Positions 3,393 through 18,600 of a stretch of DNA of 64,000 nucleotides are shown piece after piece. This DNA is from Sarcomyxa edulis. Its lineage: Eukaryota; Basidiomycota; Agaricomycetes; Agaricales; Mycenaceae. The translations under genes were made by a program, and so were the position numbers. The DNA is taken from contig QUOL01000002.1 of the NCBI GenBank assembly GCA_009761415.1, forward strand, positions 2,604,001 through 2,668,000. Reading direction: 5' to 3'. Each line of letters starts with the position of its first letter. Within the stretch, counting starts at the first letter, position 1. The notes below the pieces were generated by a model. That model saw only the letters and a program-made list of their open reading frames with translations, made no database searches and was not told the DNA's origin.

Positions 3393-3865
3393 CCAGAGGA
3401 TGACCAGGAGCCACGGAGGCTGGATGATGATTTGAGTGGCAGTGACCGCGGCCACTTGACCGAGATTCCCACAGAAGTTAGCCAGAGCGACCTTAAGTCA
3501 CTCTGGCCAAGTCCTAGCCAGCCAGACGACCTTAAGGAAAGTGTAGCTAACATGTGTATTTGTACCTTTGTTATGCATGTGCCATCATCAAACCATCAGA
3601 TCAGATTGATTATCGATGATCAATTTGCAATTGATGTTATCGGATCCTGATGGATTGGAAATTCATTTTTGGACATGCGGTGCTGCACCAAAGTCCCACG
3701 CAGGTTAGCTAGACTTTTCTTAACGTCGTCTGGCTGGCTAAGACTTGGCCAAAGTGACTTAAGGTCGCTCTGGCTAACTTCTGTGGGAATCTCGGTCAAG
3801 TGGCCCGCGGTCACTGCCACTCAAATCATCATTCAGCCTCTCCAGGCTTCATAGCATCCTCTGTA
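3393..3865. repeat. Fold-back (inverted-repeat) element, MITE-like
   Basis: A left arm at about 3,393-3,552 is repeated in reverse complement at about 3,697-3,865, with roughly 145 bp between. The shared core includes CCACTTGACCGAGATTCCCA and GTTAGCCAGAGCGACCTTAA. By eye the arms match at about nine bases in ten, with small indels near the outer ends (CAGAGGATG on one side, CATCCTCTG on the other). No open frame in it looks coding. A non-autonomous DNA transposon remnant is the simplest reading. I could not define a target-site duplication. Confidence 0.75.
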
Positions 3866-4982
3866 GGGTTTTGAGCAGCTAGTTTCCTTTGCACACCATC
3901 TATACTGTAGCCCTCTGTATCGTACCAACGGGGGTCCGGTGCGTGACACCTCCGAAATCCCCCAAATTAGCAACCTGGGTCAGGTGACGCGTTGTGAGGA
4001 TGCCAGCATCCCCAGCCAAGGAATCGACAACTATACAACAACCTACTCTTATGCGACTCCTCAGACATAGCTAACTACAGAGATACTGGTGGCATCACCA
4101 CAAACGACTTACTTTTCGAATGACCGGACACTGAAAGACACCAAGTACCCGCTACTTGACGGTTTCTCCCCGAAAGCGGCCTCTTCATCCACTCACCAAA
4201 CGCTAAACCGCCTTCGGTCACGTCTCAGAACGTTTCGGAATACTTGAAATCACACACGAACAACTTCTCCGAAGGAAATCTACCGCCAGAACCCAATTCC
4301 CTATCGTCGTTTCACCTGACCGAAGGCCCAATGTACTCGATCACCTCTCCGCAGCCCCCTAGATCCTTCGGACAGATCCCAAATCGTTTCAGCAGGTTCC
4401 CTTTCACCTCTAGAAGACCTCATCGAGAGATACTTCACCGACAAAACATTGCCACCAGTCGACATACCGCCAACGTGATGCTTGCTGCCCTGAGCTGTTC
4501 TACCTATCAAATCGGACATATTCCCTTTACATTGTGATCTCAATTCACACCTTTCCATGCATCTGGACACCTCGTTAAGACCTCCGTCCACCCTGACCAA
4601 GTGGTGCTACGGAATATTCTTCCCTCTGTGTTTATCACATGACACAGCACTTGTAAGCGAGGTATCGCCCGCTAACAAAGACACTACAGGTCTCCGCCTA
4701 GCAACCCACATCAAATTCACTCTTCTCGGACAACTTTGGCCGTCGTATCTTGGAAAAATCTATCGGAAGCTCCCCATCATCCTGCTCACTCGGACATGTT
4801 TCATCCCTTCACAAATTCACCTTGCAACGCTTTCAGAGAACACCTCAGGCCCTAACCTTTCACACTGAGCGAGGTTCGGACACATCAAAACCAATACCGG
4901 ATCTGTTTCATCATTGGAGATCTCGGGGACCTTGGGATGGCACTCGGGGTGAAGAATTAGGCAAGGACAGGGAAGGAATTCA

Positions 4983-4990
4983 TATATAAA
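4983..4990 (+). promoter_or_regulatory. Candidate LTR TATA box
   Basis: TATATAAA occurs at the same position in both LTRs (14,909-14,916 in the right copy), within ATTCATATATAAAGTAGG. It is the best TATA match in the LTR and faces the element's interior, so it is the likely start region for genomic RNA. Confidence 0.55.
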
Positions 4991-5199
4991 GTAGGATAGG
5001 ACATGGAGAAGGGTAGATAGAATCAGTGTGGACGAGAACCAGAGGAACACACCCGAATCGACCAACTACCCAGTCACTCTCTATAGGAATTCTATCTCTT
5101 TCTCATACTTCTGAAACCGAGACAAGGAAACGATTACAGGAGTCGGTCAAACAAAGAGAAAAGGACTTGATTCAGCCAGCAGTACCACCCCCGGAACAA

Positions 5200-5545
5200 A
5201 GGAAGCTCTCCGAAATCAGTCCAGAGCTGTCCGAAACCCTCGAAGCTCTCCGAAATCAGTTCAGAGCTGTCCGAAACCTTCGATAGCTCTCCGAAGACGT
5301 TTTATAGTTATACAAAGCATCGGTCAGCTCACCAAAAGCTGTCCGAGGTCCTCGTAGGTTCTCCAAGATCGAACTTATAGCTGTCCGAAGCCCTCGATAG
5401 CTCTCCGAAGACGTTTTATAAGCCGTCCGAAGCATCGATCAGCTCTCCGAAAGCTGTCCGAGGCCTTCGTAGGTTTTCCAAGAACGAACCTATAGCTGTC
5501 CGAAGCCTCTAAACGGCCTACCGAGAACGATCCTACAAGTCCGAA
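5200..5545 (+). repeat. TCCGAA-rich tandem array inside the 5' LTR
   Basis: The decamer GCT(C/G)TCCGAA and close variants recur many times. Larger units are also visible: a unit of about 60 bp near 5,205-5,275, then two units of about 115-125 bp starting near 5,264 and 5,382 that each run from AGCTGTCCGAA to a CAAGA(T/A)CGAAC. The same array is in the right LTR at about 15,125-15,470. It lies downstream of the putative TATA box, so it would be transcribed. Confidence 0.8.
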
Positions 5546-5742
5546 GCTTACCTTACACCTCATCATCTCATACCCACCTCACCACCGTTTTACGAACACA
5601 TTATCCAAACACAAGTCACTGGGCATTAGGATTTCTCGCTACGTAAAATCCCCTCCGAGAAAACGTCACCTTACCCCCTAGAGGCGAACTATAGTTAGGA
5701 GTCTAGCACATCTACTCCTAGCGCCGCAGTCCTCATCACAAC

Positions 5743-5760
5743 TGGAGCCCACCGCGAGGG
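5743..5760 (+). promoter_or_regulatory. Putative primer-binding site
   Basis: TGGAGCCCACCGCGAGGG starts 2 bp after the LTR. It has the TGG expected to pair with a tRNA 3' CCA and can be read as the complement of an acceptor stem plus T-stem. The tRNA cannot be identified from this window. Confidence 0.6.
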
Positions 5761-6094
5761 GGATTGAAAGCCTCTTCTTAGGCCTTCCAAAATACCGCGA
5801 TTATCCGTTAAAAATATCCATAAAACGACCTCTCCAAAGAAACTGCTCCGTTCACCGTTACCACCGTCAATAAATCACAGATGGGTCTCATCCCAGACGC
5901 TTCCTTCCAATCATAGACATCACGCATAAAAGGAACTACTTCTCTACCCTATCCACAGACATTACTTCCAACGACTATATTAAAACGAATATACGTCTCT
6001 CAGTCTCCGAAACTAAAAGAAACGGAATCGTGGATTATTTTCTTATAAAAATACATAGGAAACAAAAATATTACTTTCAATCCGAACTACTATC
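5761..6094. other. Untranslated leader of the element
   Basis: About 330 bp between the primer site and the end of the zinc-cluster gene. No open frame of note; the sequence is AT-richer than its surroundings. It would serve as plus-strand leader and as 3' flank of the antisense gene. Confidence 0.5.
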
Positions 6095-7829
6095 TTACGC
6101 GGTATCGGCCTCCTCCTCCTCAAAAATAAACCCGTACTGGTCCTCAACTTGCGATATTGCAGCGTCGATAACACCCGACAACTGATCACGGATGACCGGG
6201 GCGAGCTTACCAAAAACCTCGACACCAGCAGCGCCGTCAAGAATCCTGACCTTCAAGCCGTCAACCATTGACTTCCACTTTCCTCGGCGACCTGTGGCCT
6301 GTTGACCCTGGGAGACGGACGGGGGATTGACCGAGGAAGGTCCAGATGGCTCGACAATACCCGTATCATCGAAACCTTCGAAATGACTCGCGAACTCTCG
6401 CTGAAGAACGGTCTTGCGGGTTTCCGGAATACGCATCTCACCAAAAGAAATTGGAATCTCGGACAAGGTATCACTGGGTGCCGACTCCGCAGCATGGTGA
6501 CCACCAACGAGCTTGGGTACTACGAATAAAGAAAGCAGTAAATTTAAGGGAAACGCGATTCCTGGAACAAAACGCACCACGTATTTTCAAAGACGCAGAC
6601 TGGGATCCTTCGACAACAACCGGTGAAGTCTCGCGAGCCTTTCCTTTCCCTTTACCTTTCGAAGGCATTTCTTGGCGCTCGCTGATAGTCGAAGGGCCAG
6701 GGAGACTGTTGGAAGTTTCGAAGACGGGAGCGGTTTTCTTTGGGGCAATAACGATTTCCCCCAGTTGAATCGCTTGGGAAAGGTCAAGGAGGCCTTCGCC
6801 CTCGTGTATATCACAGCCGATCCTTCGAGCAAAACACCGGTCGCAGGCGTGGCTACGATGCCCGTTGCAGGTCACGTTGTTCTTAATGCACGCGCTACAA
6901 CGCCAGTCCTGTAAAGAAAGATATGGGGCTTAGAAAGAGTTAGAACAAAAGGGAGGAAACGTACTAGGTGACGGATGAAATAAGGCTGATGGGCCTTTAG
7001 GATACGACCTGCTCTCTTTGAAGAAATACCCGGGGGTTTCTTGATAGGAACTACGCGAATTTTGGAAGGACCTATAACTTCGACGCGAGGACGAACGATG
7101 TCGGTACTAAACTCCTCCCTTGGGCGCTTGACTCCGCGAGGATGCCTGACCCTCACTTCAGGAGACGATACGTCTCCCTCGGAACTCTCGGGGTTGACCG
7201 CGGAACCAATGGTTGCTGGGGGTGGATCTGTCGCGTGAACTGTGGCGACGCCGCTGGGACCGGAATCGGTATCATCGGCTGAAAAGAATAAATCGAAATC
7301 AGTCAAAGGAGGACGGGAAAGCGGGAACTGACTTACCAAGCTCATCGATCTCGTCCTCGGACAAGTTGGGAAACTCGGAAGTCCCCAGTATCTTTTCAAA
7401 GCTACCGTACCACGGAGCAGGAGTCTCTTCCTTAGCAGGAAGGAAGAGGGGAGTGCGACGAGCGGGGAGATTATATTCGAGCGCCTCTAAGAAAAAGTCG
7501 GGAATGACGACCAGCTGGCGAACAAAGCCAATGATATCGTCATCCAAGGCAGGGAAATCGTCGAAAGCTGGAGGAAACGGAGGCGTCCACCCAATGTGTA
7601 GGAAAGCCACACAAGCTGAGTGGAGCTCCTCGCGACTTCTCGCGGTAGCCGGACGGAGCGCCTCAATCAGACCATACTCGGCGCCTGAAATCCTCCGTGT
7701 CGACCTCATGGAGTCCGAAACCTGTGCTGGAACCTTGGTGGTAGGAAGGCCACCGGATAGCGCGAGGTTGAAGGCCTCAGAGAACGTAAAATCGGGAGCG
7801 ACTTGTGACGTAGACGACGATAGAGGCAT
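6095..7829 (-). CDS. Zn2Cys6-like zinc-cluster protein encoded antisense inside the LTR element
   Basis: Spliced from 7829-7337, 7278-6965, 6908-6578 and 6519-6095, all with GT...AG introns of 56-58 nt, giving 520 residues. Joining the second and third exons completes the motif at residues 273-301: C-SA-C-IKNNVT-C-NGHRSHA-C-DR-C-FARRIG-C. This is Cx2Cx6Cx7Cx2Cx6C, the spacing of fungal binuclear zinc clusters. Unlike classical regulators the cluster lies mid-protein. A basic stretch (KGKGKGKAR) follows and the C-terminus is very acidic (EEEEADTA). The ATG at 7,829 is safe, but an upstream exon at 8,071-7,945 (ending RNEIAE) splices in frame to an acceptor at 7,838, so the true start may be further 5'. 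DNA or nucleic-acid binding is inferred from the motif only. Confidence 0.65.
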
Positions 7830-8071
7830 GGGAATAGTCTTAGGAGGTAATGGGAGAGGTGATCGAGACGCGTTTGGTGCTGGAAAAATGGTGGGCAGAG
7901 GGCGATTGAGAATTGATCGATAAAGTTCGAAAGTGATTCCATACCTCGGCGATCTCGTTTCGGGTATCTCCAGGCACGTGTCGATCTAATCGCGCTTCGC
8001 ATCTCGCGGCGGCACCAAACAAAGGAGAGGCCGATGCCAAACACCCACTGGTAACCGAAGGATCGGACAGC

Positions 8072-8648
8072 CTAAAGGAGATCGGGCTCGATCACATCGA
8101 AAAACGAAGAAAGTCGAGACCGGAGAACAACAATCATGGAGATAAAAATCGTCGGAGCAAGCATATCCAGGCGAACAAGCACGATTGAAAATGAAATAAT
8201 GGAAGTCATCGAACATAAAAAGTTAAGGGTTAAACGGTACCCAGGAAGTCGATAAGAAGAACGAACGATTAAAGCAAGCACGAAACGGACAAGTTTGCGC
8301 CATGGGAGTCATAAACCCATAACGGATAGAGAGCGACGGCTCTCCTGTACACAGTGACGAAAATACTGCGAAAAGACACGGACGACAAACGATCAAAAGA
8401 AATTGGAAGAAAAACGACTATGCGGGGTTCGGAGACGATAGATCTGGCTGGCCAGCGGATCTACTGACGCAGACCGAACCCAATTATGCGCTGATATGAT
8501 TAAAAGTATGCGACTCACAACGTTTTACAGATTTACGAGGAGACCGAGACGCTGGATCTCACACTATGCAAAATTATGAACGAATTATGCGCCTGTTATC
8601 AGGCATTTATTTTACAAGAGACAAGGAATCGGAAACTCATCGGACGGT
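8072..8648. other. Intergenic stretch of the cassette
   Basis: About 580 bp between the zinc-cluster gene and the next antisense gene. It may contain a first exon of the zinc-cluster gene (an ATG lies near 8,303 on the minus strand, followed by a GTACCG), but I could not join it in phase. Nothing else is recognisable. Confidence 0.35.
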
Positions 8649-9584
8649 CTACAGAATGGTAGTATCAGGTACCGCTCCAGCTCCTCGACGATTAGCCCTT
8701 GCCCCTCCGCGACCTCTCCCACGCGTCGCAGCGTTCCGAGAATCTACCTGTCCGAAAGCTCCAGGGCCGAAATGAACTTGGTGGAGACCTCCGAGACGAG
8801 GATCGGGAACGTCTCCGTGAAGACGGACCTCTTCAAAGCCCTCTTTCACGGGAAACCTCGCGACGAAAGGGACAAGAGGATATTGAGGAGCAGGAAGAAT
8901 AGGATTGGGAACGAAAGCCGCCCGCAATCTGAGCAGGTCGTTAACTTGCTGCTGCTTCATTTCGGGAAGCACGCCGTACACGTTGTACGCATCGGACGAC
9001 TCAAATCCATCGAAATCCAGGGCGGTCCCGACGTATCCGACCTAGAAAAGGACGAAAAGAAATAAATCAACAAAGGATGAGAACCAAGAAATAAGTAAAA
9101 CGCGCCTGGGCAACCATCTCGCTCTTCACCGACGATAAAAGATACCCAACGTTCCTAACGTTGACCGCAACGTAGTCCCCCTCGAAACCAAAGTTCTTCA
9201 GAAAGAACTCGAGCATGGCGACGGTAGTGGTGGCTTGAGCAGGAATCGGAATGGTATCCCAAGAGCCTGATTTAATGGCCTCGGAGGCTCGGAGTTTCAT
9301 AGCTTGATGCTGGACGGACGATGTTGAAAGAGGAACGATGAAGGAAAAACAAGCGAGCCGCTTACTACGTAATTGACGATCCGGGTGAGGAGGGTCCTGA
9401 CCCAGAGCCTTTCCTCGAGAGGAACGTCCGTCGGACACCTCCCATTTACGGAGAGATGAACGATGCCTAGGAGGCTACGAATTGACCGAGACCAGATGGT
9501 GGTCGGAGACCTCTCATTTTCGAGGTCGGGATCCTGGGGTTTTTCGGGAAAGCGATTTGCAGACAAACGGAGAATAAAGGACAT
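8649..9584 (-). CDS. LTR-cassette paralogue E with RGG-like C-terminal tail
   Basis: Exon 1 runs 9584-9366 and exon 2 starts at 9309 (phase-0 GTAAGC...CCAG intron). A third exon at 9041-8649 follows an acceptor TTTTCTAG; its donor is unresolved (a weak GTGAAG near 9,130, or a GC-type site near 9,105). Exon 1 holds TIWSRSIRSLLGIVHLSV and ends RIVNYV; exon 2 holds PIPAQATTTVAMLEFFLKNF. These match the two modules of the four genes upstream. The last exon is unique to this copy: it is Pro-rich and ends in TRGRGRGGARANRRGAGA, an RGG-type tail typical of RNA- or DNA-binding proteins. TATA-like TTTATATAT sits at 9,636-9,644 about 50 bp before the ATG. Function unknown. Confidence 0.55.
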
Positions 9585-9819
9585 CGTTGATGGAACTTTA
9601 CTGACTTAAGGATCAGAGCAAACGATTCGGGGAGGTTTATATATGCAGACTACAATAAGTGGCATATGATTCTGGGAGCGTTACTTTACTCCGTCGTTTC
9701 CTCCTCCGACCCTGGCCAGTCCTCCGCGTCGCTATATCCTGCACCTTCGGACTCCCCCTCGACTACGACAACGCGCTTAGGTACGACCCTTTCGAGGAGA
9801 TCGAGACGGATCGATCTGG

Positions 9820-10403
9820 TCATCGCGCTTTCCAACGCGGCATCCCCGGCTTCTCGTACTCCGGCCAATCGAAGGCATCTTCAGCCGACGCGTAAGCTGC
9901 CAGGGCGCGTATGCTAAGCTCGGTAAGAGCTCGGACGGCTTCGACCTCCCAATGAATGGGGCTTGCTGGCTGAATTCGGACAGCCCGACAAATCAAGCGC
10001 AAATGGCTAATCGTTCTATTCATCTCGGACGGAATCATGTATAAACGCCTGTCCTGCTTGTTCAGCTCCTGCCACTGGCTGTGGAAATGGACCTGTTACC
10101 GATCAAGTGAAAACCCGTTAAACGATAAGATCGCTAAGGGTCGAGCTTAGACCAACGTACCGCGAGGAGCAACACGATTTGCGCATTGCAGTAGTAGGGA
10201 ACCCTCTCGCGACCAGTTAAAGCTACAAAGTAGCCATCGGGCCCGAGTTCACGGAATATAAAATCGGCAACGAGGCCGACAGCTGGGCGCAGGAGGCACC
10301 TGAGATAGTGAATCATTCCGTCACGATCAAGGATATCGAACGTTGCTGCCTCTTGGGCAAGAGTGTTCAAAAGGACTTGGTGTAGGGGTTCCATAATTTT
10401 CAT
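9820..10403 (-). CDS. LTR-cassette paralogue D
   Basis: Two exons, 10403-10161 and 10092-9820, joined by a GTACGT...AACAG intron of 68 nt in phase 0; 171 residues. Exon 1 contains MIHYLRCLLRPAVGLVADFI and ends NAQIVLLLA. Exon 2 contains MIPSEMNRTISHLRLICRAV. Both modules and the intron position match the neighbouring paralogues. A TATA element (TATAAAG on the minus strand, 10,444-10,450) lies about 45 bp before the ATG. The frame stops at 9,820, but the next frame continues with a coherent acidic stretch to 9,686 (ending GSEEETTE), so this copy may carry a frameshift that removed its tail. Unknown function. Confidence 0.6.
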
Positions 10404-10488
10404 GGGCTCTGTGGTGACCTGTACGGAGGAATTGATTCACCCTCTTTATACTAAAAATATCGCGCTATTCAGCTATCGGACACCCCTT

Positions 10489-11084
10489 CTACTTGCCCGT
10501 ACCCTCCCCTGCCAACCGTATCACGAACTCCGGGAATTCCACGGCAACTGCCTCTCGGTGCATTACAGGGACGATAGACCAAAGGAACTCCTTCGTTAAA
10601 TCCTTCCTCTTCACAAGTACATCTTCATCGTACCCGAGCTCAACTCCGTGATGGATAAGGAATAGCTGCACCATGCTTGCGAGGCGCAACGCTTCTGACG
10701 GAACCACGGCCTCGTCTCCTCGGCCAATTGCCGTCACTCTATCCCTAAACCGTAGAATGGCATCCTAGAAGACGTAAGGTTAACACTCCGAAGCTCACCG
10801 AGTGAACCACGGACACCTACCAAATGATCCAACACGATGCGGAACCAGCCTTTCGTCTCGCTCCATATGATTGGTTCGACGGTGTCTCTCGGGGAACTCG
10901 TTATGAGATAAGCCGCGTACCCCCGCTCGACGATCTCCATCATAGGGCGGAGGCGGAACCGAAGGAAATTTGTAAAGCCCTCGGTAGGAGCGAAATCCCC
11001 GGCAAGAACTTCAGGAGGATGGGCATACGACAAAAACTCGTCTCGGAGAGCTTGAGTAAACGATGAACTAACGACATGCGACAT
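10489..11084 (-). CDS. LTR-cassette paralogue C
   Basis: Exons 11084-10821 and 10764-10489 with a GTAGGT...TCTAG intron of 56 nt in phase 0; 179 residues. Exon 1 contains FTNFLRFRLRPMMEIVERGY and ends FRIVLDHL. Exon 2 begins DAILRFRDR and contains VVPSEALRLASMVQLFLIHH. I chose the ATG at 11,084 because it follows CCAAA and lies about 45 bp downstream of a TATAAAG at 11,126-11,132; the in-frame ATG at 11,138 would lie before that TATA box. No signal peptide or membrane segment. This is the cleanest of the five paralogues and the best guide to their structure. Unknown function. Confidence 0.65.
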
Positions 11085-11199
11085 TTTGGCGGAATATCGA
11101 TGGCTACCCTGCGCCAGCTGGCGTTCTTTATACCTCATCGGACTTAGGACTGACGTCTTGGACCGATAAGAGGTGTCCGAACGAATTCCGTGCAGCCAC

Positions 11200-12150
11200 T
11201 GTTAACCGTTGGATTCTCCGGACCGTGCCTTATCAGAAGCAGTAAAGACGCCTGTTCTTCGGTATAGATGCTCACGGAACGATTGCGAATGCCACATGCA
11301 AAAGAACACGAGCTGGCCGCCATGTCGCGCCGCTACCCTGGGACCATCTTTTCGACTATTGTCACAGGTCCTTGCCTCACCTGATACACTTCGCCGTGTC
11401 TCGTTCCTTCGCAAAGATTTCGCAAGATCGCGGTCACATCACCCGCACACGTATTAACCCGCACAGTCTCAACTGCGCCGTAAGAACAACGACGATCAGG
11501 ACGCAAGCCACCTCGATCTAAACGGCCATGACTTCATGAAGCCACTGGCGCTTGACGGCTGTCGGCTTTGAGCGCTGTAGAAATGCAACTGCATCATCTT
11601 GAAGAAGAAAACAGCATCTTGCGCCGGCCGAGTTATTGAACGGGACGAGAAGATCATCCTGACATCGATAAAGGCGAGGCTACGGAAGAACGAAATGATG
11701 ACCAGGCCACTGAGCGATATAGCGAAACTGTAAAGGAGAAAAGCTCTGAAAGCATTAATAACCTCTCTCCGTTCTCATCTCACTCGCCTTCCCCTCTGAA
11801 CTTTCCTCTCATCAAGAGCCGCTGACGGAGTTACGAACTGTCCGCGATTCAAATGTCTGCGCACAGCGGGTGGAATCATCGGACATGGTACCCTTTATAA
11901 AGGAGGTTGGGAGGCTGCCCGAGACCGTTGTGCCCTCCGGACTGACAGTGCATTCCATAAACTACAAGATCTCTGAACACGGCACGCGAAAGGAGTGTTT
12001 ACCCATTAAAGTACCAACGACGACAAAAACCCCCTCGGTCACATCCAGGAAAGCTTCCCCGCTACGCGTGCGTTCTGAAATGCGAATTTCCGACTATTAG
12101 TATCCCTCTGAGGGGCCCAAAGAACGAGACCGACGGCGCCTGCTTACCAG
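11200..12150. other. Decayed stretch of the cassette, with an orphan TATA element
   Basis: No intact gene in about 1 kb between paralogues B and C. A strong palindromic TATA (CTTTATAAAG, 11,893-11,902) stands where a sixth promoter would be expected, but the minus-strand frames after it are short. The short open frame at 11,414-11,202 on the minus strand may be a relic. A lost cassette gene is a reasonable inference. Confidence 0.35.
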
Positions 12151-12223
12151 AACACCAGGTCCTCAAATTCGGGATACTCCTTTGCCCCGCCAGTCAATGA
12201 AGCGTTAACGTCGGCCTCATCTT

Positions 12224-12778
12224 TTAGTGACTGAAGCATTTCCCTCCTCTGCCGACGCTGCTGAGGGCCCAGTCCCCATGAAATCCGACCTTGTCATAAA
12301 CGATAAGACTGAACTCCATCATACGGGATACCTCTGAAGGAATTTTAAATTCGGCGGCGTTGGCATCGGTCCTGGCCCGCTGACGGTATGCAACGATGAG
12401 TTCCTGCGCAGAAGGATTCTTTTAGTATCTCTGCGTTCCCCGCTGAAAAACGGTGGAAGCCCGTACAACGTTCTCGACGAAAAACCGCATAAGCCGCCTC
12501 GACAGCGTATACTGCCCGATAACGCTATCGGTGTCATCGGGAAATGCTGTCACCCTATGGGGAAGCGTCGCCTGGATGACACCGAACATCATACGAAGGC
12601 GTTTGCGGAAGAATCCATCGAAGCCCTCGTGCGGATAGAAACGGGTCGAATGAAGGACGGGACGTTCAGCGTCATGAAGTAGTCGCAGAGTCTCTCGCGA
12701 GCCATTTGCATACTGCGGGCAGGCATTTCGATTTTCAACACGAAAGGACTCGTCGTTTATATGTACATGAGACTGCAT
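12224..12778 (-). pseudogene. LTR-cassette paralogue B, probably frameshifted
   Basis: Exon 2 is recovered by splicing: an intron 12466-12404 (GTACGG...GCGCAG, 63 nt, phase 0) joins ...RFFVENV to ELIVAYRQRAR and on to KIPSEVSRMMEFSLIVYDKV, stopping at 12,224. Exon 1 holds FDGFFRKRLRMMFGVIQ. The open frame begins at an ATG at 12,778, giving 163 residues, but a TATA element lies downstream of that ATG at 12,756-12,762. The ATG that follows the TATA (12,726) opens another frame (MPARSMQMARERLCDYFMTL) that looks more like the N-termini of the other paralogues. The simplest reading is a one-base shift between the N-terminal part and the conserved module, so the copy is likely inactive or mis-sequenced. 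Confidence 0.55.
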
Positions 12779-12820
12779 GCCCTCGATCACCTCTCCGAAC
12801 CCTTCCCTCTTCTTGCCGCC

Positions 12821-13759
12821 TCATGCCCCCGACAAATTGTTTAGTCCCTGTTCAATAATCGCCGCCCCGCCAATCAAACCGTTCCTCTCCTCTTCGGATA
12901 ACGTCTCCAAAAGCAGGCGAAATGCCCCGTGTGTTGCCAAGCTTGCGAGTGGCTGGACTGTGCCTCTCCGATCAGCTCGTTGCCGCACCGCTAAAGTGTC
13001 AGAATTCTTACCGGACAAGGCCCTTTCTACCTCGGCCACCTCCATTTCTTCGTCCCCGTCGTCCGTTGCAATACTTATGACGGATATGCCTTCGTCTTCG
13101 TTGTTAGCCGGATTTTCTTCCCCCTCGAGGCTGTTGCCCCTGTCCGTACTAATCGTACCATCTCGATGTACCCTGGGACCGCTGTATGGATGCTTCTTCA
13201 ACACGGCATGCGCATGGAACCGACCACGCGGGTCCGCCTCGATGTAATCGAAAGCGACGCCGAATGTCGATCGGCGGGCGTATTCTTCTATGAAGTACAA
13301 GATAACGTCGATCTTATGTGCCTCGTCCTCGTCCTGATCCCCGGAAAACCCTACGACGTGGACGCATCGCTGCACCTGGTAAACGGCGGTCACTGCTTCC
13401 TTGGGAAACGGCTCTGTGGTATCGTCCATGCACCTCCCCTTCAGTACCCATCTAAGTCTGAGCATGAATACCTTGACCTTCGCAATTAGCACGGACCCCC
13501 TGAAAGGCGCACACGCACTCACCATGTGCTGGCACAAGATTTTAACGTGCTTTCTCAACGTATATACACCGTGACTCGAGAACTCCGGAAGGAGAACGTC
13601 CGCCACTGCATCCTGAAAAATGCAGCTAACAACTAGGTGAACCATGGGACGGATATTGTTACGCAGGTATCCGAGGAAAGTTGCCATCGTAATATCGCCA
13701 TCTATCCCGTCTAGATCGAGGCAGCGCGTAAAGAAGAGTTCTTTTGCTATGGGATCCAT
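12821..13759 (-). CDS. LTR-cassette paralogue A (longest copy)
   Basis: Exon 1 is 13759-13523 and exon 2 is 13477-12821. The intron is only 45 nt (GTGAGTGCG...GCTAATTGCGAAG, with a CTAAT branch-like site) and keeps the frame, so it is easily missed; it falls exactly where the other four paralogues have their intron. The product is about 297 residues. Exon 1 contains FLGYLRNNIRPMVHLVVSCI and ends KILCQHM; exon 2 contains PFPKEAVTAVYQVQRCVHVV. It has a long acidic C-terminal extension (NNEDEG, DDGDEEMEVAE) absent from the others. TATAAAT on the minus strand (13,805-13,812) lies about 50 bp before the ATG. Unknown function; it is the gene next to the right LTR. Confidence 0.65.
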   Translation of the reverse strand: MDPIAKELFFTRCLDLDGIDGDITMATFLGYLRNNIRPMVHLVVSCIFQDAVADVLLPEFSSHGVYTLRKHVKILCQHMVSACAPFRGSVLIAKVKVFMLRLRWVLKGRCMDDTTEPFPKEAVTAVYQVQRCVHVVGFSGDQDEDEAHKIDVILYFIEEYARRSTFGVAFDYIEADPRGRFHAHAVLKKHPYSGPRVHRDGTISTDRGNSLEGEENPANNEDEGISVISIATDDGDEEMEVAEVERALSGKNSDTLAVRQRADRRGTVQPLASLATHGAFRLLLETLSEEERNGLIGGAAIIEQGLNNLSGA

Positions 13760-13909
13760 TTGGCTTGTTGCTTTCAGGAAAGCTCTGGCTGTCTTAACCT
13801 TGGAATTTATAGGTCCTTGGCCGGTCGTCCTTGCCCTGTTTTGGTCACGGGCACGTTGTTGTGTTTGCCCTCCGGATGATCGACCGGGGACGGTCGATAT
13901 TTAAAAGTT

Positions 13910-13918
13910 AGGAGGAAG
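13910..13918 (+). promoter_or_regulatory. Polypurine tract
   Basis: AGGAGGAAG immediately precedes the TGTGAGG start of the right LTR, the usual place of the plus-strand primer in LTR retroelements. It confirms the orientation set by the putative primer-binding site. Confidence 0.65.
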
Positions 13919-15666
13919 TGTGAGGATGCCAGCATCCCCAGCCAAGGAATCGACAACTATACAACAACCTACTCTTATGCGACTCCCCAGACATAGCTAA
14001 CTACAGAGACACTGGTGGTATTACCACAAACGACTTACTTTTCGAATGACCGAACACTGAAAGACACCAAGTACCCGCTACTTGACGGTTCCTCCCCGAA
14101 AGCGGCCTCTTCATCCACTCACGAAACGCTAACCCGCCTTCGGTCACGTCTCAGAACGTTTTGGAATACCTGAAATCACACACGAACAACTTCTCCGAAG
14201 GAAATCTACCGCCAGAACCCAATTCCCTATCGTCGTTTCACCTGACCGAAGGCCCAATGTACTCGATCACCTCTCCGCAGCCCCCTAGATCCTTCGGACA
14301 GATCCCAAATCGTTTCAGTAGGCTCCCTTTCACCTCTAGAAGACCTCATCGAGAGATACTTCACCGATAAAACATTGCCACCAGTCGACATACCGCCAAC
14401 GTGATGCTTACTGCCCTGAGCTGTTCTTCCTATCAAATCGGACATATTCCCTTTACATTGTGATCTCAATTCACACCTTTCCATGCATCTGGACGCCTCG
14501 TTAAGACCTCCGTCCACCCTGACCAAGTGGTGCTACGGAATATTCTTCCCTCTGTGTTTATCACATGACACAGCACTTGTAAGCGAGGTATCGCCCGCTA
14601 ACAAAGACACTACAGGTCTCCGCCTAGCAACCCACATCAAATTCACTCTTCTCGGACAACTTTGGCCGTCGCATCTTGGAAAAATCTATCGGAAGCTCCC
14701 CATCATCCTGCTCACTCGGACATGTTTCATCCCTTCACAAATTCACCTTGCAACGCTTTCAGAAAACACCTCAGGCCCTAACCTTTCACACTGAGCGAGG
14801 TTCGGACACATCAAAACCAATACCGGATCTGTTTCATCATTGGAGATCTCGGGGACCTTGGGATGGCACTCGGGGTGAAGAATTAGGCAAGGACAGGGAA
14901 GGAATTCATATATAAAGTAGGATAGGACATGGAGAAGGGTAGATAGAACCAGTGTGGACGAGAACCAGAGGAACATACCCGAATCGACCAACTACTCAGT
15001 CACTCTCTATAGGAATTCTATCTCTTTCTCACACTTCTGAAACCGAGACAAGGAACGATTACAGGAGTCGGTCAAAACAAGAGAAAAAGGACTTGATTCA
15101 GTCGGCAGTACCACTCGCGGAACAAAGGAAGCTCTCCGAAATCAGTCCAGAGCTGTCCGAAACCCTCGAAGCTCTCCGAAATCAGTTCAGAGCTGTCCGA
15201 AACCTTCGATAGCTCTCCGAAGACGTTTTACAGCTATACAAAGCATCGGTCAGCTCACCAAAAGCTGTCCGAGGCCCTCGTAGGTTCTCCAAGAACGAAC
15301 TTATAGCTGTCCGAAGCCCTCGATAGCTCTCCGAAGACGTTTTATAAGCCGTCCAAAGCATCGATCAGCTCTCCGAAAGCTGTCCGAGGCCTTCGTAGGT
15401 TTTCCAAGAACGAACCTATAGCTGTCCGAAGCCTCAAAACGGCCTACCGAGAACGAACCTACGAGTCCGAAGCTTACCTTACGCCTAATCATCTCATACC
15501 CACCTCACCACCGTTTTACGAACACATTATCCAAACACAAGTCACTGGGCATTAGGATTTCTCACTACGTAAAATCCCCTCCGAGAAAACGTCACCTTAC
15601 CCCCTAGAGGCGAACTATAGTTAGGAGTCTAGCACATCTACTCCTAGCGCCGCAGTCCTCATCACA
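13919..15666 (+). repeat. 3' long terminal repeat, 1,748 bp
   Basis: Second copy of the LTR at 3,993-5,740, same orientation and length, about 98% alike by eye. It ends CCTCATCACA and is followed by GCGGCACAAAG, unlike the sequence before the left LTR. Confidence 0.93.
15125..15470 (+). repeat. TCCGAA-rich tandem array inside the 3' LTR
   Basis: Counterpart of the array at 5,200-5,545, with the same unit order and a few substitutions. Confidence 0.8.
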
Positions 15667-18600
15667 GCGGCACAAAGCTCGTCAGAAGTACGCTGAACAC
15701 GAACCACGTTATCAAGTATTTTGTAAGCGTAGCTTACTACACACGTTGTACTTGTTTGTCTACGACCTCCTACATACCGCGTCTCGCTTGTACTGTTCTT
15801 TACCTTTTAATACACGCTCCGTTCCATTTTAGCTTTCTCCGCTCTCAGTGTAGCTCACCTCGGGTAAGCTCACATATTTGTGGAATTAGTTTGCTAGTGC
15901 CACAATTGGATTTAGGCAGCTATACTGTATACAAAGAAGAAACTAAAGAAACTAAAGTGATAGAAAGGTGGTGTTGAGCAGGAGACAAGGAATATGATTG
16001 GAGACATGGGTGAAGTCATGTAACACCGTCGCGATCACTTTCAACTCAACACATCTTGCTCGTTCAACATCGTTCCTTGAACGATCCTCGTCGACTCTTT
16101 TGTAACACAAAATGGCAATATATACTTTTATATTCCAAGATTTATGGAGAAAATTTTATGGTTGAAAACTGAGCTGTCGACCATTTAAACAAGTTTCTGA
16201 CCTTTCTCCTGCCTGTGTCGTAGCACCCCACCACTCAATTCCCTGACATTGAACACAGATTCAACGCATCATATGTAGATGGTGGAAGCTCTTATGAGGG
16301 TTCTAGGAAGTTCCAGGGTATATAGATAAAGCTATGGTGAGTAACTTCCAGTTATACATTTGAACACTAAATATGCTCATACATCTTTCATAGCGCTGGA
16401 GGGCTACCGTACGGGTTCTGTGTAAGCTAGGTGTCTTCCATGGTGCTTATATATACCTACTCTAGAGCTCCTGGACACCTGAGAGTCTCCCTTTCTGCAA
16501 GATAAGTCTCCCACCTCCCCCTCCCACCCCTTCCAGGGACAAAACAAGTTGTTCCCCCATCCATATTACTACCCTATAGATGTTCTATAGAGGAATTCTA
16601 CATATGGATGGCTCGGAACACCCTGGTGGGTCACTTCATCTCCTCCTCCGCCAGAAAATTGAATTCACTCCGCACCACTAGTCCTATGCCCTTCCTCCTG
16701 AATAATACACCTCTATAAATAATTCTTGTACAACAAAGACACCTTTGTACATGTCTCCCCATCTCCAGACATTAATGGCAAGGAATATTGCCCCCATAAA
16801 TGGACATATGTCTGATTCCCCCCTCCCCCTGATATACAGGACCTCTACTCTTTAACCTTTCATGTCTATACCATACATCCCTACCTCTGTACCGCTTCAA
16901 ATCTCCTCCTACCCCCCCACAATCTCATGTATTACTCTATACTGAATATATCCATGTATATGCATGTAGTCACTCTCTCAGGCCCTTGGGAGGCGAAAAA
17001 AATGCACTATAATACAATATAAATATATACCAAGACATCCTGCAAAAGAAACCGAGGGAATAGGTGGAGGAATGAGTGGATATGCGTGCTCGCTGTCTCG
17101 AACAGTGAGCACGAAGGTTCGGAAAGTCGCCGAGATCACCGGAGATTTGCCATAAAGTGATTATTATGTAATAGGTATCAGCCGTAATTGATCGGAGACT
17201 TAACATTTTGTGTAAAAAATTAAATCCGAAATCAAAATCCTGCCTGATACACCTCGTGCACGGTATATATACCCCAGAGATATCCAGGCAAGGTATGAAG
17301 GAACAGATTGAGGAACTTCCTTATTCGGATTCACGTGACCCTTTCTAAGCGAGTTAGACCCATCGACCAGTCCCTCGGCCTTTCGTTGTCCCAAGGCCTG
17401 GACGTCAACGTTAAAAATTGACGAAACACGTTCATTAATGCACCGCGAATGGTGACGTCCAGCGGTGAACGCCAGCGTATCGACAACAGCCGTTCCAATA
17501 GGTCTCAACGTACAAGTGGCCTTGGCTGGCCGCTGGTGGTCCGTTCTCCCTGGATATATTGATGCGCAGTCGACGTGTACGCCGCGTCCGAGGCTTCAAA
17601 TATTCCGAGTGTTTGTTTTTGACGTCTATCACCTTTTCAAAAATGCACAGGATCGAGCGGATGGTGATGCTGTAGTGTTTCAAGCAAACCAGATCACTTT
17701 TTTTCTTTTTCGGCGGGTTTTCCGTTGAATGATCGCGTACGTCCTCCGACTCCGAGGGGCCTCAATTGTCGTTCCGTTAATAATAGGTGCGTATGACGGA
17801 ACTGGAGACGACGTTCTCTGTCCAGGCCTGCCCGAGGATTGGATCGGCGACCAAAGTGGATGACGGCAGTACGCTCTGATACGCTGGGCATCGGGTGTGT
17901 GGGGAAACGGAAGAAGAATGGCAAATGGCACGCGTACGAGGGCAATCTGGGCCCAAAGGCCTCTTCAACATTCCGTTTCGTCCGATTATTTGTATTTTGG
18001 GTCAAATTTCTTTCGATCTCACTTTTCGCAATTCGATTTTCGATGTCAGGTCTTGGGGCCATGGCCATCGATAACCATCGATGGCGAATGATTGGCTTTT
18101 GGGAAATTGCAGGAGGTACGCGGGAATTATCGTCTCATACCGTCTACCGTGGTCTGTGGATGACACGAAGCAGCAGTGCTGTGTACGCGCTTTTTAACCC
18201 GAGATGATGCCAGGAGGATTACATCCGCACCCGCATCAATTGCGCATCATTCGTGACCTTTGGACTCCCTGCCCTCCCTGGTGCACTGGTGAGTCGTGAC
18301 TCGCTTGTAGACTGGACGCCCGTCGACATGCATACGCATCAATCATTCTCCGAGTCGTACGTCCAAACCGGTGGGTCCAACGTGCGTGACCTCCCATAAC
18401 CTCCCATCCCCCTCCTAGTGGTCAGTGGACGTGGCAGTTGATTCATAGCATTACAGATTGCGGCGGCAGACATTCCCCGAGCTCAGAATCCGGAGCTTGC
18501 GCAATGTCCACGGCAATAACATCAATTTCGATTTCTCTCTTTGGCGGATTAATATGCGCTATCGACAATCCATCCATCAATCGCCCCTCCTAGTCGCTGC

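Follow-up and report, generated by a model that had tools for sequence, protein, structure and literature searches.

The window analysed here is a stretch of 64,000 nucleotides from the basidiomycete Sarcomyxa edulis (C12:2604001-2668000; the genome searched comprises 35.6 Mb in 40 contigs). Between positions 3993 and 15666 it contains an element bounded by long terminal repeats (LTRs), the interior of which carries six genes or gene remnants on the minus strand, with models A to E translating without internal stops. The element is the short form of a family whose long form carries gag and pol. Its two LTRs are of 1,748 bp each (TGTGAGG...CATCACA) and differ by 41 substitutions and 2 gap events. 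The features are the following, in window positions.

3993..5740, plus strand: 5′ LTR, with GCGT on its left flank; part of insertion E1, the 3′ LTR of which is now on contig C3
5743..5761, plus strand: candidate primer binding site (PBS), TGGAGCCCACCGCGAGGGG, of the TGG type, starting 2 nt past the 5′ LTR
5756..5911, plus strand: what may be left of the gag leader frame (40% over 58 aa), located where one would expect it; a marginal match
5771..8320, no strand: block specific to the short form, without alignment to the long copies read
6095..7829, minus strand: gene A, 4 exons (7829-7337, 7278-6965, 6908-6581, 6519-6095), 519 aa
8649..9584, minus strand: gene B, 3 exons (9584-9366, 9309-9106, 9041-8649), 271 aa
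9636..9643, minus strand: TATA box of gene B, an overlapping pair with starts at 9643 and 9641
9820..10403, minus strand: gene C, 2 exons, 171 aa, shortened in the window copy by a frame shift, past which the C-terminal part is not in frame
10489..11084, minus strand: gene D, 2 exons (11084-10821, 10764-10489), 179 aa
12319..12726, minus strand: gene F, decayed, similar to D on visual inspection; frame disrupted in the window copy and variable among copies
12821..13759, minus strand: gene E, intronless, 312 aa
13811, 12761, 11132 and 10450, minus strand: starts of the other TATA boxes, for genes E, F, D and C, respectively
13910..13918, plus strand: polypurine tract (PPT), AGGAGGAAG, abutting the 3′ LTR and identical across the three long copies that were read
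13919..15666, plus strand: 3′ LTR, with GCGG on its right flank; part of insertion E2, the 5′ LTR of which is now on C3

Alignment bears out the LTR-bounded structure proposed in the initial annotation of the window, with its 1,748-bp LTRs, TGG-type site, and purine tract. The absence of gag-pol from the interior, also proposed there, is confirmed by searches with 300-aa pieces of the long-copy gag and pol, which match a long copy strongly as a positive control. In the interior of the element they detect no credible pol (best E 0.05) and, for gag, a single marginal match to the leader, at 5756-5911 (E 0.001 with the interior as target and 0.008 with the whole window, in which an unrelated place reaches 0.019). 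The description of the interior as separate spliced antisense genes with TATA boxes stands in part. The genes do lie on the opposite strand, and in B to F (five of six genes) a TATAWA box precedes the ATG by 35-59 nt, at a background chance of ~4.5% per position and with 8 boxes in total on the minus strand of the interior; but A lacks such a box, E is intronless, and C and F are out of frame.

Gene A has been seen only in short-form copies, where it occurs as several divergent types. It contains the motif CX2CX6CX7CX2CX6C, the cysteine spacing of which resembles the Zn2Cys6 consensus; in six-frame scans of the window interior, of L009, and of L027 (C12:993000-1008000), the motif occurs once per region. 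The second intron of gene B (9042-9105) is GC-AG in 9/9 copies. BLASTP comparisons among A to E give weak matches (best E 0.006), and a motif that seems common to C, D, E, and F is a by-eye reading. Protein searches found one match for E (78%), one for B (63%), and none for A, and no relative of E was found in viral contigs. A search for 5.8S rRNA gave no match at E 0.001 (39 of 1,290 candidates scored).

Short and long forms of the family

The element recurs in the genome far beyond chance. At least 40 matches to its LTR were found, with 40 of 110 candidates being scored, and two interior stretches have 33 and 38. The 33 matches to positions 7000-9500 include 15 that contain the gene A side (short form) and 16 that start only at 8313 or 8321 (long form), the two others being a minor portion on C2 and, on C11, a fragment at 78%.

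Long copies are of ~17.5 kb. Those at C7:344164-361645, C1:2004806-2022287, and C12:529176-553263 have in common with the window the LTR and PBS (to ~5770) and the region 8321-15669, at 97.5-98.7%, and the PBS candidate is near-identical among those read. The layout of the long form is LTR, PBS, sense gag-pol, antisense A′, antisense B, C, D, F, and E, PPT, and LTR; the short form is without gag-pol and has gene A at the place of A′. A and A′ have the same domain order and the same cysteine spacing, and are 29-45% identical over matched parts. The C7 copy has a gag frame of 878 aa and a pol frame of 1,280 aa, and both are likewise intact in C1. In the C12:529k copy the LTR spacing is ~6.6 kb longer, gag, in a stop-to-stop reading, is interrupted at codon 8, and pol is open. 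Among the 36 of 174 pol candidates scored, there are at least 13 open matches (≥1,240 aa, 98-100%), query included.

Against solved chains, pol is closest to Ty3-G (E 6e-34), and it also matches retroviral reverse transcriptase (RT) chains and the PFV integrase core. Pfam identifies RNase H, integrase zinc, and protease domains, whereas RT and the integrase core have no match at E 0.1. The order is RT, RNase H (536-664), and integrase (809-1069); the position of integrase after RT-RNase H, together with Ty3-G as best chain, points to Ty3/Gypsy and not Ty1/Copia. With LTR, PBS, gag, pol, PPT, and target duplication all present in its long form, the family as a whole is a Ty3/Gypsy LTR retrotransposon, and the window copy is a non-autonomous LTR element, having no gag-pol and having its ends in common with a gag-pol-bearing partner. 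The initial annotation had proposed looking for such a Gypsy partner with the same LTR ends and PBS. It had also regarded the cassette as a captured block that replaced gag-pol, and this is not supported, since the partner has B to F and a homolog of A downstream of pol, and a second family is collinear. No element with both gag-pol and gene A was seen among 109 gene A and 43 pol matches (the latter from the 36 candidates scored), element limits having been read at part of the loci.

This second family consists of pol relatives at 70-85% (~79%) on several contigs. Eight matches to gene E at 39% were found, six of which have a 70-85% pol on the same contig within ~32 kb, with E downstream and on the opposite strand; this is co-location on a contig and not proof of a single element. 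At one locus of this family (C12:993000-1008000, minus strand), one can identify A2, B2, C2, D2, an extra D-like frame, F2, and E2, in collinear order. Identities to the first family are 50/45% for B2, 30% for C2, 34% for D2, and 38% for E2, the extra D-like frame and F2 being recognised by eye. Because the long-form partner has B to F and a homolog of A, and because the second family has a collinear antisense set, the cassette is an old resident of the lineage. Frames resembling those in the LTR of the first family adjoin this second-family locus.

Insertion sites and recombinant copies

Matching 4-mers are found at both ends of the short copies of C11 and C6 and of the long copies of C7, C1, and C12:529k, whose LTR pairs differ at 2, 0, 2, 0, and 1 positions, respectively. 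Four further insertions are recovered when ends are re-paired by flank and LTR identity: two on C38 (0 and 2 differences) and two between the window and C3 (1 and 0). In total, nine sites have matched ends, and at these the LTR pairs of short and long copies alike differ by 0-2 of ~1,748 positions. The 4-bp target duplications are NCGN at 9/9 sites, a pattern that makes up 6% of the 4-mers of the window, which suggests a CpG-centred target preference. Because copies with matched ends combine 0-2 LTR differences with 4-bp NCGN duplications, both forms have moved recently. The initial idea of a mobile, retro-copied element is upheld. Further copies in the genome have this gene order together with target duplications.

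The window copy itself has mismatched 4-mers at its ends, and these match crosswise with those of an element on C3.

3989-3992 and 15667-15670 of the window, with C3:470532-482210: crosswise partners, LTRs and 4-mers matching

The left GCGT and 5′ LTR of the window pair with the right 4-mer and 3′ LTR of the C3 element, at 1 difference in 1,748, and the right GCGG and 3′ LTR pair with the left end of C3, at 0 differences. When the left flank of the window is joined to the right flank of C3, the joined sequence has a contiguous 96% match across the joint at C36:564433-564715. Given these crosswise matches and the contiguous flank at C36, the two elements have swapped arms, through a translocation or an assembly misjoin. 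The lack of a matching target duplication around the window copy follows from its being a recombinant of two elements, and the sequence to the right of 15667 may belong elsewhere. The copy at C38:359989, with unmatched ends (CCGT/ACGC) and 25 substitutions between its LTRs, looks like another recombinant. At C38:1732928-1756314, a short element lies within a second one at CCGT, and there is an apparent inversion between both copies; the ends there re-pair as ACGG/ACGG (0 LTR differences) and CCGT/CCGT (2).

Constraint on the antisense genes

Gene A is open, with splice sites kept, in 7/7 copies compared. These represent 5 distinct types, and in one of the copies the donor of intron 1 is GC. 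Across 10 pairs, dN/dS is 0.12-0.17 and dS 0.23-0.93. Gene B is open in 9/9 copies (dN/dS 0.10) and gene D in 10/10 (0.09), and gene E has a dN/dS of 0.10 among intact copies, with 23 of its 25 full-length matches free of stops. The values are 0.21 for C (3 pairs), 0.68 for F (2 pairs), and 0.05 for both pol (1 pair) and gag (3 pairs), all dN/dS figures being averages over related copies, for the fetched copies only, in which past and present selection are combined. Because its types, at dS 0.23-0.93, combine such low ratios with conserved splice sites, selection has retained gene A within the short form. The introns occur in all copies compared (A 7/7, B 9/9, D 10/10), in agreement with the initial view of spliced genes lying antisense to the genomic RNA.

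Divergence along the element is mosaic. Short copies that carry one of three other A types match the window at 74-96% in 250-bp bins from 5741 to 8240 and at 96-100% from 8241, and the long copies are at 95-100% by bin from 8321 on. Similarly, A′ is 93% identical between C7 and C1 over ~2.1 kb, while the right part of each is at 97.5-98% to the window. Recombination during reverse transcription is the likely cause of this pattern. Diversifying selection was considered as the cause of the variable A block but is not supported, in view of the whole-gene dN/dS of 0.12-0.17 and of a 3′ flank that varies too. Among gene A types (6095-7829), dS exceeds both the intron divergence (0.12-0.40) and that of the upstream flank.

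Mobilisation, alternatives, and known elements

The explanation favoured here, with a probability of about 0.8 for the whole including mobilisation in trans and regulatory antisense proteins, is that the short form is the non-autonomous form of a recently active Ty3/Gypsy family. Its genomic RNA would be transcribed from the LTR and then packaged and copied in trans by Gag-Pol of the long form. The introns, being antisense to that RNA, would be retained. The genes themselves would be transcribed from their own promoters to give accessory, probably regulatory proteins, that of gene A being a putative zinc-cluster nucleic-acid binder. Recombination between co-packaged short and long RNAs could keep the LTRs and B to E uniform, while the A block would persist as separate, long-diverged types. 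A role as element regulators is the most likely one for these genes by analogy with the antisense genes of Grande, Retand, and retroviruses, as treated in PMC7264820 and PMC11963269.

A number of observations weigh against this explanation. Trans-mobilisation, packaging, expression, and protein function are all inferred from sequence. The loci read are 3 of the 16 long and 8 of the 15 short copies, some of them in part, and on the 5′ side the two forms align for only ~30 nt beyond the LTR. Several of the short copies read are recombinants (window, C3, and C38). Gene A has no TATA box, gene C is open in 5/6 copies (the exception being the window copy), gene E is broken in 3/10 (open in 7/10), and gene F is broken in most. 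Pfam gives no family match for A to E at E 0.1; this includes zinc-cluster families, so that for a fungal Zn2Cys6 transcription factor it is the cysteine spacing alone that fits. PDB searches with A and E gave no match for A and no credible one for E (two at E 0.4-0.9). The case for A2 as a homolog of A consists of its position, its cysteine motif, and a match of marginal strength (E 0.04 pairwise; 8e-4 between A′ and A2). Finally, no primer tRNA was found: a 14-base PBS pattern has 51 sites, and the five loci (six sites) taken as outside known elements are without a tRNA, as is the one site of a looser pattern, the backward control of which likewise gives one site.

A further step would be to regard the short form as a satellite retrotransposon, i.e., a long-lived gag-pol-less lineage that uses the machinery of the long form, has its own selected regulator A as against A′ of the helper, and is otherwise kept uniform by recombination with that helper. 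We put this forward tentatively, as the less probable side of the question; if true, it would parallel phage satellites and their helpers.

Among the alternatives, the one that survives best, though unlikely, is that the short form arose from the long form merely by a recent internal deletion, its antisense genes being passively kept. The identity of B to E, LTRs, and PBS (95-100% by bin) fits a deletion, as does the marginal gag-leader remnant behind the PBS, and the short form may indeed derive from a gag-pol ancestor. However, the split between the two is not recent, because the short-form block has no DNA-level alignment to the long copies read and A has diverged so far from A′; passive retention is also at odds with A types that have such dS and dN/dS values and have kept their splice sites. 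It is still less probable that the antisense transcripts act as RNA, through double-stranded RNA or small interfering RNA, with incidental reading frames. Such a role is proposed as possible for plant antisense ORFs in PMC7264820, but strong amino-acid constraint, kept introns, and conservation at the protein level to the second family argue for proteins, while leaving room for an added RNA role. The weakest alternative, host DNA trapped by recombination between two solo LTRs and no mobile unit at all, could draw on the mismatched 4-mers and the 41 substitutions of the window copy, but it is ruled out by other copies with matching duplications and near-identical LTR pairs, by an interior that recurs (15 left-side matches including the A side, 26 full-length on the right), and by the reciprocal exchange with C3 and 96% flank match at C36, which account for the mismatch. 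The initial annotation had tied this alternative to the LTRs flanking gag-pol elsewhere and to a unique interior; gag-pol members with these LTRs do exist, but the interior is not unique.

LARD-type non-autonomous elements have long LTRs, no gag-pol, and a non-coding interior, and are presumed to be moved in trans. The short form of the S. edulis family resembles them in its long LTRs and lack of gag-pol, but its interior is coding, with genes under purifying selection. Among fungal elements, Boty/BcGypsy1 reportedly has an antisense gene, brtn, said to have been described by Zhao et al. in 2011. The gene, in Boty/BcGypsy1 of Botrytis cinerea, is cited as such in PMC7264820 and PMC8365987. The likeness is that of a fungal Gypsy element with an extra antisense gene. 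The difference is that brtn is the one such gene named, whereas here there are six genes or remnants, most of them spliced, and a gag-pol-less partner that keeps them; this distinction is by description and not by the brtn sequence.

In plants, the Retand elements, as described in PMC11963269, have a long region between pol and the 3′ LTR with antisense ORFs, recently active non-autonomous members, and suggested DNA binding. They differ in being plant elements with mainly a TRP28 ORF and, in about half, tandem repeats, whereas here there are several genes with TATA boxes and introns and a distinct A gene in the gag-pol-less form; the Pfam null for A to E includes TRP28. Maize Grande (gene23) and rice RIRE2 have an antisense gene between pol and the 3′ LTR, and gene23 has its own promoter and a nuclear protein product (PMC7264820). 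One antisense gene is described there for Grande, and the word intron does not occur in that review. The giant non-autonomous DNA transposons of Ectocarpus (PMC12477816) include families with only non-transposase genes, presumed to be moved in trans, and one family with a gene opposite to the transposase; they are DNA transposons and not LTR elements. Extra antisense ORFs are already known from Boty, Grande, and Retand, and what is new is the number of genes and a selected gene in the gag-pol-less form. Among the open-access papers searched, judged by title and the start of the abstract, none was recognised as reporting several antisense genes carried together by a Gypsy element of a basidiomycete.

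Where an element has no gag-pol, a gene for a trans-acting protein would be expected to decay if it did not benefit its own copy. Gene A is instead strongly constrained across types with dS of up to 0.93, in elements that lack gag-pol. The role of antisense genes for the LTR elements that carry them, a question left open in a 2020 review (PMC7264820), thereby becomes testable, and the family is a clear example of genes that have been maintained with their introns through reverse transcription. To the left of the element, at 3450-3805, the window contains an inverted repeat with arms of 108 nt that are 94% complementary.

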